DNA of 49,511 bases from Candidatus Lokiarchaeota archaeon (lineage in GTDB: Archaea > Asgardarchaeota > Thorarchaeia > Thorarchaeales > Thorarchaeaceae): assembly GCA_014730275.1 (NCBI GenBank), contig WJIL01000052.1, positions 1-49,511 of the forward strand, read 5' to 3'. The notes under the pieces are model-generated. The model was not told the DNA's origin and searched no databases. It saw nothing but the letters and a program-made list of their open reading frames with translations. Below are positions 2,101 through 6,385 of the stretch, piece by piece (position 1 is the stretch's first letter; each line of letters begins with the position of its first letter). The position numbers were made by a program, and so were the translations under genes.

Positions 2101-2603
2101 AGTTTATTCACCTTAGCAATGGAACATACTGTTTCAGAGTATCACAGGGTGTCTCATTGACTATGGGCAGATACTAGCTTGAGGGTATTAAATCCTAACG
2201 AGAGAGTAACAAAAGAAGAGCTATATGTCATAAATAGCCTGATCTCTGTGATTCAATGAAAACCTTTGTTCGGGGTCAAAAACAAGCTACTTGATTCTGT
2301 TCAGAATCTGGAGGACATTTCCGAAATTGTGTTGGATGTACCTACTTTTTTCGTTATAGGCTGTAACTTCTTTGAACATAGCATCTTTTCTGGCTTTCTC
2401 AAGGAACCTGCTTGATGTTATCTCTTTTCTCCCGAACATGGCGAACTATAGATGTCTGCGTTCAGATTCTGAAAAATGCCGACTAAATGTCATTCTAATC
2501 ATATGCTACAACCAAATATGGAAATATGAAAAAATAAACGAGTCATCATCACAGCAGGGTTAAACATTTATGTCAAAAGCACAATCGCGTCTTGGAGCTT
2601 CAA
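2101..2603. other. Intergenic region between divergent genes
   Basis: About 500 bp without a convincing gene. The only open frame of note on the plus strand (2372-2563, 63 codons) has low-complexity composition, no ribosome site and no recognisable motif, so I do not call it. The region holds a TATA-like element for the minus-strand membrane gene near 2186-2197 and one for the plus-strand operon at 2561-2570. I see no tRNA, no strong hairpin and no repeat. Confidence 0.6.
2561..2570 (+). promoter_or_regulatory. TATA-like promoter of the longin/GTPase operon
   Basis: TAAACATTTA lies about 27 bp before position 2592, which would place transcription start near 2592. This supports ATG 2604, with GGAG at 2594-2597 as ribosome site, rather than the upstream TTG at 2592 as the start of the first gene. 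Confidence 0.45.
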
Positions 2604-3725
2604 ATGCCTGAAGGAGTCTTTGTTGTCCGCTTGGATGATATGCGTGGTTTCCTTGTTGAGGAGAAACACCCCACCACGCTGAGATTGAGTGAAAAGCTTC
2701 TGAATGTAATCTTCTATGAACATGAGACAGGCAAGAAGGAGCAGATAAAATTCTTTGAATCAGAAGGAAAAAGAATTGGCTCCTTTACTCAAATAACCCA
2801 TCCAGCGTGGTTTGTCTGTTTTATCCTCAGTCCTGATGAAGAACCGGAGATAATACGTGATCAGCTTATAGGTATGGGGAGACTGATTACCGAACTAGCC
2901 ATCGAAACACCGGATAAGCTCGATTTGGGACAGATTCTCAAGGAAGGCAGTACACTTCCCAAACGATCACAGGAACAGCTTTTCACGGAGATATTTACCA
3001 CACCATCCACTGCACTACTACTTGAAAGACTAGAAGATGAAAATGAAGGCGGATTGGAGAAGGCTGCTTCGCTTTCCATTTGGTTGAAAAACCAGGTCAA
3101 GAGTGAAGATATGGATTTGCGCGAAATCGTTAAACCCCTGATGAAATCTGGAGCAGTAGAAGTGAAAATGGTTGGCAAGGCTTCAGAAATGGTATTTCTC
3201 ATCAAAGATGTATTTGCCTACAGAGCACCCCCAGTTCAAGCACTACTGAATGTTGAGAATCAGCAGATGAATTTCGCCGAAGAATACAGACAACAAGTCA
3301 AGGAATTCTTCTCCCCCGAGGGGGAGGGAGGCTATAATCCATCATTGCCAGTAACAGACCCGAATTCTCCCATTTTGGAAGATAGACAAAAAATTGCAGA
3401 GATTATGGATAACATCTTTCATTACAGGATTATTGAAGCACTTCGGGAGAAGCCATGTAATGTGGAAGAGATTGTCAGTGAAACTGCTTTGCCGAAGAGA
3501 ATCGTCAGGGATTCCTTGAGAGTATTACGTAACAATCATATAGCAATTAATATTGGAAAAGAAGGTACATGGGCACTGCTCTCAAATCCTAGGATTGATT
3601 GTTTTATGCCGGAATTTGTCCTTCCAGCTGTAGCAAAAAAAGTTAGAAGCAAGAAAGTAAAAAGACAAGCTGCACAGGAGTACTTGGAGTTACTTATACA
3701 ACAATGGGAGGGTGAAAACAGTTGA
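2604..3725 (+). CDS. Longin-like/winged-helix protein encoded with a small GTPase
   Basis: A 373-residue protein that I cannot place in a named family. Residues 1-100 alternate strands and helices in a pattern compatible with a longin or roadblock fold: VFVVRLDDMRGFLVEE, a helix, then WFVCFILSPDEEP and a long helix. The middle is acidic and helical. Residues about 270-330 (REKPCNVEEIVSETALPKRIVRDSLRVL, read in two parts, then WALLSNPR) look like a winged helix-turn-helix. ATG 2604 is chosen over TTG 2592 because GGAG at 2594-2597 is well spaced. Its stop overlaps the start of the next gene by 4 bp (TTGA), which implies translational coupling with the longin-GTPase and probably a physical partnership. 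Fold assignments are inference. Confidence 0.8.
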   Translation: MPEGVFVVRLDDMRGFLVEEKHPTTLRLSEKLLNVIFYEHETGKKEQIKFFESEGKRIGSFTQITHPAWFVCFILSPDEEPEIIRDQLIGMGRLITELAIETPDKLDLGQILKEGSTLPKRSQEQLFTEIFTTPSTALLLERLEDENEGGLEKAASLSIWLKNQVKSEDMDLREIVKPLMKSGAVEVKMVGKASEMVFLIKDVFAYRAPPVQALLNVENQQMNFAEEYRQQVKEFFSPEGEGGYNPSLPVTDPNSPILEDRQKIAEIMDNIFHYRIIEALREKPCNVEEIVSETALPKRIVRDSLRVLRNNHIAINIGKEGTWALLSNPRIDCFMPEFVLPAVAKKVRSKKVKRQAAQEYLELLIQQWEGENS

Positions 3726-4591
3726 TACGCGGAGTATACCTTCTTGGGCCCCATAACAGCTTGCTTCATTCTAAGGAATATGTGGAGCCGGCATCAAGAG
3801 AGGCTCTCATCGACTTCTTGCTGAATCTTACGGAGTTTCTTTCAACACAGGATTTGGGAGACCAAATCGAATTCATGAATCTAGCCACTTCACGACTCTA
3901 TTACTCAGTAAATGGAGACTACACCTTTCTTCTTGTCGCAGACAAGGCAGACGATATGGAGCAAATAACCGAGAAGATTCAGCAACTGGAAACCGTCTTC
4001 ATGGAGAAATTCGTGCCGGTATATGAAGCCGGAAAAGCAATTGAAGGACTTGACAATTTCATAGATAGTCTGGCTGTAACGATGGTAAAGGTAGCGATTC
4101 TTGGTTTTGCAGGGGTAGGGAAAACCACGACTTTGCATCTGCTACGCGGGGAAACATTACCGCTGAAACATGATCCCACAATTGGTGTTACCATCAAGAA
4201 GCTGCCATCAGAAGTTGAAAATGCCAACATAGTGTTGTGGGATCTTGCAGGTCAATCACGGTTCAAAATCCTATGGGGTAAGATGATTGCGAATGCTCAG
4301 GTTGTTGTTATTGTCACTGACAGCACCCTCGAAAATGTACTTAAAAGCAAGAAACTGGTTGGCCTTGTTAAAGAGAAAGTACCGAATGCGAAAATCATAG
4401 GTATCGCCAATAAGCAGGACCTTCCAACAGCATTAACGCCTGATAGAGTTGGTAAAATACTCGGTGTTAAAACCTATGAGCTAGTAGCAATCGACGTATC
4501 CTATCGGGATAGGCTTATTCAAATCATCCGGAGGGCCATTTTGGAAGGAAAAGCTGAAGATTCTGGTGACGGAAAGAAGGCTGACAATTAG
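3722..4591 (+). CDS. Longin-domain / Arf-like small GTPase fusion protein
   Basis: A 289-residue fusion. Residues 1-120 (starting MIRGVYLLGPHNSLLHSKEY, with a central YTFLLVADKADD strand) match the layout of a longin domain, the fold found in SNAREs, adaptins and the SRP-receptor alpha subunit. Residues 121-275 form an Arf/Rag-type GTPase: P-loop GFAGVGKT (128-135), switch-I DPTIGVT (151-157), switch-II WDLAGQ (173-178) and NKQD (230-233). All nucleotide-binding boxes are intact, so binding and hydrolysis are likely. The Gln of WDLAGQ corresponds to the Arf/Ras catalytic Gln. There is no C-terminal prenylation cysteine or N-terminal myristoylation site. Start is TTG 3722, preceded by a strong GGAGGGTGA site at about 3707-3714. 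Asgard genomes are known to be rich in such GTPases and in longin proteins. One polypeptide carrying both suggests an intramolecular regulator. Confidence 0.88.
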   Translation: MIRGVYLLGPHNSLLHSKEYVEPASREALIDFLLNLTEFLSTQDLGDQIEFMNLATSRLYYSVNGDYTFLLVADKADDMEQITEKIQQLETVFMEKFVPVYEAGKAIEGLDNFIDSLAVTMVKVAILGFAGVGKTTTLHLLRGETLPLKHDPTIGVTIKKLPSEVENANIVLWDLAGQSRFKILWGKMIANAQVVVIVTDSTLENVLKSKKLVGLVKEKVPNAKIIGIANKQDLPTALTPDRVGKILGVKTYELVAIDVSYRDRLIQIIRRAILEGKAEDSGDGKKADN

Positions 4592-4686
4592 ATAAGACAA
4601 GATTAGCAAGACACTAGCAAAAATAATAAGAACAGTAAGACACGAGAAAACAGTAGAGACACTATCAACTGAAGGTGGATTATCCT

Positions 4687-5343
4687 ATGGCGTTTGACAT
4701 TGATGAAATTATGCAGAAACTAAAGGCAATTGAGGGGTTTGCCAAGAATGTATCTGAGACAAAAAAGCTTGCAGATGATTTAGCAAAGAATTTTGCCAGC
4801 ATGAAAACAGCACTGACCAATACTATGAACGAGAGCTTCACAGAGATAGCTCAACAAATAGAGGAACTGCGCAAGAACATGGAGCGCATGGAGGAAATGG
4901 GAAGTGTTGAAGCTGCTACCTCATCGGCGGAACCCACACCTTCACCGACCCCGGAGCCAACTCCAAAACCACCTGAACCAGAACCAAAGGTTGAACCAGA
5001 GCCTGAACCAGAACCAAAGGTTGAACCCGAACCAACCCCTCAAGAGGTTGAAGAGGTATCTGAAGTCAAAAAAGAAGAGCCAGAGGCTCCTCCCAAAGAA
5101 CCGACCACTGAACCAGCTCCAAAACCACCTCAACCAGAACCAGAAGTTGAACCAGAATCAGAGGAAGAAAGCGGCGAACTCGATCTGCTCCTTCAAGAAC
5201 AAGATCAAGTCAAAGCAAAGCTCACAGATCTTCGATTTGATTATATGCGTGGATACATTCCAGAAGACGAATACAAGGAAAAGGAGAGCGAACTGGATAA
5301 CAAGCTAGAGGAATTGGATAAGAAAATAGCAGATCTGAAGTAG
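4687..5343 (+). CDS. Coiled-coil protein with Pro/Glu-repeat linker
   Basis: A 218-residue protein in three parts. An N-terminal amphipathic coiled coil (about 1-75) is followed by a linker of roughly 90 residues built from EPEPKVEPEP-type repeats, and then a C-terminal helical hairpin (about 160-218). The hairpin contains DYMRGYIPEDEYKEK, similar to the short SHOCT-like turn seen twice in the protein at 23247-23849. ATG 4687 is preferred to GTG 4675 because GGTGGAT at 4674-4680 is a well-placed ribosome site. The gene lies 95 bp after the longin-GTPase on the same strand, so it may belong to the same unit, perhaps as a scaffold. No catalytic motif or membrane segment is visible and the function is unknown. 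Confidence 0.8.
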   Translation: MAFDIDEIMQKLKAIEGFAKNVSETKKLADDLAKNFASMKTALTNTMNESFTEIAQQIEELRKNMERMEEMGSVEAATSSAEPTPSPTPEPTPKPPEPEPKVEPEPEPEPKVEPEPTPQEVEEVSEVKKEEPEAPPKEPTTEPAPKPPQPEPEVEPESEEESGELDLLLQEQDQVKAKLTDLRFDYMRGYIPEDEYKEKESELDNKLEELDKKIADLK

Positions 5344-5437: not shown

Positions 5438-6385
5438 TCATTTAAGAAGATCCTTTGCTTCCTTTATGATTCGCTTGGCACCATCAACGGTTATGCCTTC
5501 AACTTTCTGCGCCACTTCTTCTGATTCGGCATCAGCAAGCGCCTTCACTGAATCATAATGGGCAAGAATCAAGCGTTTTTCCAAGGTTGGGCCAATTCCC
5601 TTGATATCAGAAATCTCAGGTACTTCTTCTCCTTCGAGTTCCTGTATCATCTTCTTTGCTTCATAAACCATATCAGCCGCACCCTTTGAACCAACCCCAT
5701 CTACTTTGTCGGCCAATTCATCAGGATCAGCTTCGGATATCGCTCTTACATTATCAAAGCCAGCATTTGTCAGACTATCAGCGGTCTTGGGACCAATACC
5801 AGATATTTCAGTTACTTTCAGATCAGGTCTCTCGGGAGCCTTCTTCTCTTTCTTCTTTGGTTTGGCCTTCTTTTCTGGTTTCTTCTTGGGTTCTTCTTCA
5901 ACTTCTTCAACAGCTTCGGGTTTAGGTTTAGGCTTCTTCTTTGCTTTCTTCTCGCGTTCTTCACGCTTCTTTCGAGCAGCCCTACCCGGTTTCACTGGTA
6001 CATCTTCTGTTGCAACATCAATGGCTGATTCCATTTCGTCGTTCATCAATGGTACATTCTTGATAGTGCTTGCCACGACCTCAATTTGCGGACTCGGTTC
6101 TTGACCCTGCTTTTCCATCTCTTCAGGCGTAGTATAGACACTAACACCTCCTTCATGAATAAAGGGTACAATTTCTCCATCATCCGCATACTCCTTGAGC
6201 ATTTTCTTTGCAACACTCATGCGTATATTGAACTTAGATGCTAGATCGTACGGCGTCACGGATTTGGCATTGAGTACGTAACTCTTGATATCTGAAGCGG
6301 TGTCATCTTTGGGGATAGCATCTCTGACTACCCGCTCTTTCTTCGCAGTTGATCGGCCCCATTTCTTCTTACTAATTGTGAGCAC
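5438..6385 (-). CDS. rps25e: Ribosomal protein eS25 fused to two helix-hairpin-helix domains
   Basis: Residues 7-86 match small-subunit protein eS25: a basic KKKWGRSTAKKE start, then the winged-helix core with SVTPYDLASKFNIRMSVAKK and a GEIVPFIHEGGVSVYTT end. Archaeal eS25 is usually about 100 residues, but this protein has 315. After a Lys/Pro/Glu-rich linker (135-188) come two helix-hairpin-helix modules: ISGIGPKTADSL...GVGSKGAADMV (191-245) and IKGIGPTLEKRL...GITVDGAKRII (257-312). Each carries the GIGP hairpin that usually binds nucleic-acid backbones. The GTG start at 6385 is immediately preceded by AGGAGA with unusually short spacing, so the exact first codon is uncertain. A TATA-like TTTTTAAGAA at about 6461-6471 (minus) is present. 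The fusion suggests eS25 with an added RNA- or DNA-binding arm. Confidence 0.85.
   Translation of the reverse strand: MLTISKKKWGRSTAKKERVVRDAIPKDDTASDIKSYVLNAKSVTPYDLASKFNIRMSVAKKMLKEYADDGEIVPFIHEGGVSVYTTPEEMEKQGQEPSPQIEVVASTIKNVPLMNDEMESAIDVATEDVPVKPGRAARKKREEREKKAKKKPKPKPEAVEEVEEEPKKKPEKKAKPKKKEKKAPERPDLKVTEISGIGPKTADSLTNAGFDNVRAISEADPDELADKVDGVGSKGAADMVYEAKKMIQELEGEEVPEISDIKGIGPTLEKRLILAHYDSVKALADAESEEVAQKVEGITVDGAKRIIKEAKDLLK

Follow-up and report, generated by a model that had tools for sequence, protein, structure and literature searches.

A conserved Asgard operon pairs a longin and tandem winged-helix protein with a longin-Arf-like GTPase, and its family is linked to giant surface proteins

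Small GTPases account for up to about 2% of Asgard genes (PMC10307638), and work on one strain indicated that operons do not reveal the partners of these proteins (PMC10933270). A cluster of three genes in a Thorarchaeon (Asgard), one of which encodes an Arf-like GTPase, raises the question of what such a switch works with and where in the cell it would do so. The cluster lies on contig C52, whose full length of 49,511 nucleotides is referred to here as the window and which belongs to a genome of 3.64 Mb that is 99.5% complete. The genes, termed A, B, and C, are intact open reading frames on the + strand at the positions originally predicted. Gene A (2604-3725, 373 aa) begins with an ATG that follows a GGAG, its MP start being kept in all aligned relatives, while gene B (3722-4591, 289 aa) begins with a TTG that lies over the stop codon of A in a 4-bp overlap (TTGA, 3722-3725) and has a MIR-type start conserved among relatives; orthologues of gene C (4687-5343, 218 aa) begin MAFD or MSFD. 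Crude dN/dS values of 0.08 for A and 0.04 for B against the sister genome indicate that these are real genes under purifying selection, and C is likewise a real gene. Convergent with the trio, at 5438-6385 on the - strand, is a gene whose product combines an S25-type winged helix, a Lys/Pro-rich linker, and two helix-hairpin-helix domains; this last domain also occurs in the cytoplasmic tails of giant surface proteins encoded on contig C82 of the same genome (G000:C82).

Residues 121-275 of B (4082-4546) form an Arf domain (Pfam Arf, 3.6e-20), closer to Arf than to Rag in Pfam, in which the 42 homologues compared retain the P-loop, switch I Thr, WDxxGQ, and NKQD motifs, so that the G domain should bind and hydrolyze GTP. 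Its nearest solved structures are Arl1, Arf1, and the Asgard protein ArfR1, the best structural match (8oum, 6e-12). Residues 1-118 (3722-4075) follow the order b-b-a-b-b-b-a-a in the AlphaFold2 model of B (mean pLDDT 79.8), which is the topology of a longin domain, and a profile of this part alone retrieved AP-2 sigma (7.6e-5), AP-2 mu (9e-5), AP-3 sigma, and the VAMP7 longin from the PDB. Since all of the 18 best matches are longin proteins, the longin-Arf fusion that had been proposed for B is established at the level of sequence. The fusion itself is not new, as longin-GTPase fusions have been reported for the Asgard strain MK-D1 (Tran et al. 2024, PMC10933270). By model and profile, B has no N-terminal myristoylated amphipathic helix of the Arf type and carries the longin domain in its place; it is also without a membrane anchor of its own.

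The AlphaFold2 model of A (mean pLDDT 92.9, pTM 0.89) places a longin domain (residues ~4-114; coordinates 2604-2945 for residues 1-114), again with the order b-b-a-b-b-b-a-a, before a winged helix (~123-208), a second, ArsR-like winged helix (~256-334), and two C-terminal helices. An hhalign comparison relates the two winged helices (P 2e-7), and the second matches Pfam HTH_5 (9.3e-5) and, when an alignment profile is used, solved ArsR structures (8e-4). The N-terminal domain is thus modeled as a longin fold and not a roadblock: a roadblock/LC7 assignment was rejected on topology for both A and B, which begin with strand 1 and have no extra N-terminal helix. The original prediction for A had named the overlap with B, a longin- or roadblock-like start, and one winged helix; the overlap and the longin stand, whereas the roadblock option falls and the winged helices number two. 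A profile of the A longin gave no sequence match to any longin in the PDB, and its match to the B longin is weak (hhalign P 0.004). About 6 kb from an A-B pair at another locus, a stand-alone protein of 134 aa (L052:15328-15732) matches only the longin part of A.

In Foldseek searches with A, the GATOR1 subunits NPRL3 and NPRL2, in GATOR1 complexes, came first (2.7e-4 to 7e-3), followed by other longin and DENN proteins, zeta-COP, AP chains, ArsR, and, at rank 17, ESCRT-II VPS22. An 'NPRL2-like longin' family has been listed for Asgards (PMC9834061), and this asCOG family may include A. Such matches could mean that A is an archaeal NPRL2/NPRL3-like GAP and A-B a GATOR1/Rag-like nutrient-sensing pair, but we consider this distinctly improbable, given a whole-chain TM-score to NPRL2 and NPRL3 of only ~0.2 despite the best Foldseek ranking, no sequence match of A to NPR2/NPR3 in Pfam or the PDB, and a G domain in B that is nearer Arf than Rag. 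Moreover, no arginine is conserved in the longin domain among the aligned A sequences, which gives no indication of an NPRL2-type arginine finger. Because the whole-chain scores are low, the predicted likeness to NPRL2/NPRL3 is taken as shared architecture and not as membership. The locus had also been compared with the SRP receptor, a comparison that does not hold, since A has neither a membrane anchor nor an SRP-receptor match and its best folds are GATOR1 NPRL2/NPRL3 and adaptor longins. With ESCRT-II (Vps22/Vps25/Vps36), A shares tandem winged helices, two in number and mutually related; no EAP30/Vps25 match to A is listed in Pfam.

The association of A with B extends well beyond the window. 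Matches to A are present in 128 of 147 Asgard genomes (E<=1e-3), in some families only weakly, and B with its longin is present in 111 (E<=1e-25); strong matches to the two tend to co-occur or to be absent together across these 147 genomes, and families f15, f17, and f20 have no strong match to either, except for one weak B (G125). Almost every Thorarchaeota locus examined has the two genes paired, as do several further Asgard lineages, and in most relatives the coupling is tight, like the 4-bp overlap of the window. B lies adjacent to or near A in the Thorarchaeal trio clade, a Jordarchaeal clade (f4, f11), f6, f5, f9, and among Thorarchaeal paralogues, so at least five deep Asgard clades share the pairing, with a C-like gene after B in two besides the Thorarchaeal trio. 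Outside the trio clade, B was found no more than 5 ORFs from A at 29 of 68 A loci against ~2% expected, although kinship among the genomes keeps these loci from being independent, and the recurrence in separate clades outweighs the binomial value. A quick tree of 89 A loci labeled by partner required eight changes between a receptor and B as the neighbor. The genome of the window itself holds a third A, 1.4 kb from another B.

Several paralogues of B depart from the simple fusion. The closest in the window's genome (L032, G000:C103:21418-22179; 45% identity) has an in-frame TGA near the end of the match and may be truncated. Another (L045:6212-8194, G000:C62) and its Thorarchaeal relatives of 640-680 aa are single chains that run from a longin through a GTPase and a linker to a second longin and a winged-helix region; this second longin is related to that of B (P 7e-5) and the winged-helix region is only weakly A-like. 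A stand-alone relative of this C-terminal part is encoded in family f6 (L057:5042-5953). The C-terminal extension of B paralogues of 560-640 aa was considered as a fused A, a view that found no support, these being acidic tails with a negative hhalign comparison to A.

The coiled coil originally proposed for the third gene is borne out by its orthologues, which follow A-B at most Thorarchaeal loci. Their alignment gives an N-terminal coiled coil, a variable Pro/Glu linker, and a near-invariant C-terminal hairpin (LTDLRFDYMRGYIPEDEYK), the coiled coil and hairpin being conserved and the linker not. The same hairpin is found again in Jordarchaeia (P 5e-5) and family f6 (P 1.8e-5), each time in the gene that follows B, compared with P 0.03-0.04 for an unrelated coiled coil used as a control, and by this sequence measure at least three lineages keep the whole trio and not the A-B pair alone. 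Both expectations raised for this locus, longin folds in the predicted structures of A and B and a neighborhood conserved among Asgards, were borne out. In the part of the literature covered, no report was found of a conserved A-B-C operon or of fusions between A and receptors.

What is new here is that A homologues are tied to giant surface proteins, either by sharing an operon with them or as a fusion that follows their single membrane span. Asgard cells are seen to carry complex surface proteins (PMC9834061). An unfused A abuts a long same-strand gene for a type-I membrane protein in 29 of 83 cases, a form taken by 1.8% of other nearby ORFs, and many of these A and receptor genes overlap or sit no more than 3 bp apart. 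With spans and topology called from hydropathy, most A-adjacent receptors have a hydrophobic segment at the N-terminus and cross the membrane once, near the C-terminus, leaving a tail of ~90 residues (median) behind the span. The ectodomains of A-linked surface proteins contain CarboxypepD_reg, Ig-like, Invasin_D3-like, or laminin-G-like domains. In one genome (G040), receptor, A, and B are consecutive on one strand, separated by a 4-bp overlap and a 6-bp gap, and a second locus in the window's genome (C82) comprises A, a 2,445-aa receptor, a B paralogue, and a coiled coil. In two further genomes (G100 and G154), A is part of surface proteins of 0.9-2.65 kaa, partial and complete; as it always follows the span, the fused A is predicted to sit in the cytoplasm beneath the surface protein. 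A forms the C-terminus of ~2,650-aa surface proteins in a tandem series in G100, where one region (L101, L102; G100:C9:432000-470000) contains at least four giants in tandem, the complete ones of ~2,650 aa, with laminin-G-like domains and a terminal A domain in each. Upstream of the A-receptor loci of Thorarchaeota lie carboxylase and thiolase genes, which were set aside as apparent metabolic neighbors.

These fusions bear on the reading of A as a transcription regulator that binds DNA and whose only tie to the GTPase is a common operon, as the HTH_5 and ArsR matches of its second winged helix might suggest. A covalent position behind the membrane span of a giant surface protein would be odd for a promoter binder, and longin domains and tandem winged helices typically bind protein; we accordingly regard a regulator as very unlikely. 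No receptor gene lies next to the trio in the window or at any locus of its own clade, and the link of this trio to receptors thus rests on homology to other A proteins.

The locus had been described as a membrane-trafficking or membrane-recruitment module with a resemblance to ESCRT-II, and A, B, and C might indeed act in vesicle budding or sorting together with ESCRT-II-like proteins. Most Thorarchaeal trios stand head-to-head with a coiled-coil gene of ~780 aa (L062:3791-6133) that has an EAP30/Vps36 match of 2.8e-5, the B longin is related to AP sigma/mu, and VPS22 is among the fold matches of A. However, the window's genus has no EAP30-like gene at this locus, the corresponding region of the window (2101-2591) being without one, and in the other lineages that were examined no counterpart stands beside A-B. 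Genes for coats, SNAREs, or ESCRT-III were not seen beside A-B, whereas A is far more often linked to surface proteins. Participation in trafficking is rather unlikely in our estimation, and the ESCRT-II resemblance is circumstantial, resting on a divergent neighbor that most Thorarchaeota have and the window's genus lacks at this locus. The recruitment theme is partly supported, and the strongest new evidence, the fusions and operons of A with receptors, points to a switch coupled to surface receptors and not specifically to vesicle traffic. In the sister genome, the site of the missing gene is taken up by an ORF of 319 aa without relation to it, which was considered as a relic of the EAP30-like gene and rejected for want of similarity.

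The reading that we prefer, with about an even chance of being correct, is that A-B-C is a GTPase switch module whose A family connects surface proteins of the adhesin or receptor kind to an Arf-like switch recruited to the membrane. A would be a cytoplasmic platform of longin and tandem winged helices linking surface receptors to B, an Arf-like GTPase with a longin where Arfs carry an amphipathic helix. The longin of A may pair with that of B, as eukaryotic longins do in the C9orf72-SMCR8, NPRL2-NPRL3, and Mon1-Ccz1 dimers, and A might hold or regulate the G domain, so that pairing would bring it to the membrane under the control of a receptor, assuming that the signal runs in that direction. 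Given that B lacks an anchor, that homologues of A lie beneath surface proteins, and that the two are co-encoded, longin pairing at the membrane is the economical reading; in eukaryotes, it is heterodimers of longins that hold Arf and Rag GTPases (PMC8213707, PMC8534245). C would serve as a coiled-coil scaffold or effector. As the operons of the window's subfamily contain no receptor gene, its A may either work with a receptor encoded elsewhere or have specialized. A broader proposal, which we advance only tentatively, is that many Asgards possess a receptor-coupled G-protein system, in which laminin-G/Ig-type giants with a cytoplasmic longin and tandem winged helix recruit and regulate longin-tethered Arf-like GTPases, in parallel to or as a forerunner of the longin-type regulators of GTPases and the recognition between Arf and adaptors in eukaryotes. 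Seen across the family, the locus has a richer and more unexpected context than the original prediction described: the A-B loci provide a concrete pair of GTPase and partner, offer it a physical way to the membrane, and through fusions tie it to giant surface proteins. They make testable the role of Asgard Arf-like GTPases and the question of whether longin-GTPase platforms served surface signaling before internal trafficking.

Comparison with known systems places the locus among several partial likenesses. The MK-D1 fusions, like B, join a longin to an Arf/Rag-like G domain, but GTPases of that strain as a rule do not share operons with longin or roadblock genes, while B shares a conserved one with A and C (PMC10933270). 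The Haloferax vesiculation operon ArvABC likewise sets an archaeal small GTPase in a three-gene operon, although ArvB and ArvC are DUF2073 and DUF2072 proteins and A and C, by their Pfam matches, are neither (PMC10927574). A, in its predicted fold, resembles GATOR1 NPRL2/NPRL3 and the other longin GAP/GEF complexes (FLCN-FNIP, C9orf72-SMCR8, and Mon1-Ccz1) in having an N-terminal longin before further domains, and it is co-encoded with an Arf-like GTPase; it differs from them in lacking a sequence match and conserved arginine finger and in its low whole-chain TM-score. Longins also work with Arf1 in AP-1/2/3 and COPI, and the B longin is related in sequence to AP sigma/mu, yet the eukaryotic longin and Arf are separate chains and B is a single one. 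The related Asgard longin-winged-helix protein of family f6 (L057) has a DUF742 match (5.5e-6), DUF742 being the CvnC component of the conservons, receptor-linked GTPase operons of actinobacteria. At the trio itself, the domain is a longin and not a roadblock, the GTPase is Arf-like, and no kinase-like gene adjoins. Conservons (CvnA-D) keep a histidine-kinase-like receptor, a roadblock, and an MglA-like GTPase as separate proteins where the Asgard loci have an adhesin-like receptor, longins, and an Arf-like GTPase, but the logic is similar, a membrane receptor, a protein of the roadblock/longin class, a winged-helix protein, and a small GTPase being brought together in one operon (PMC13343842).
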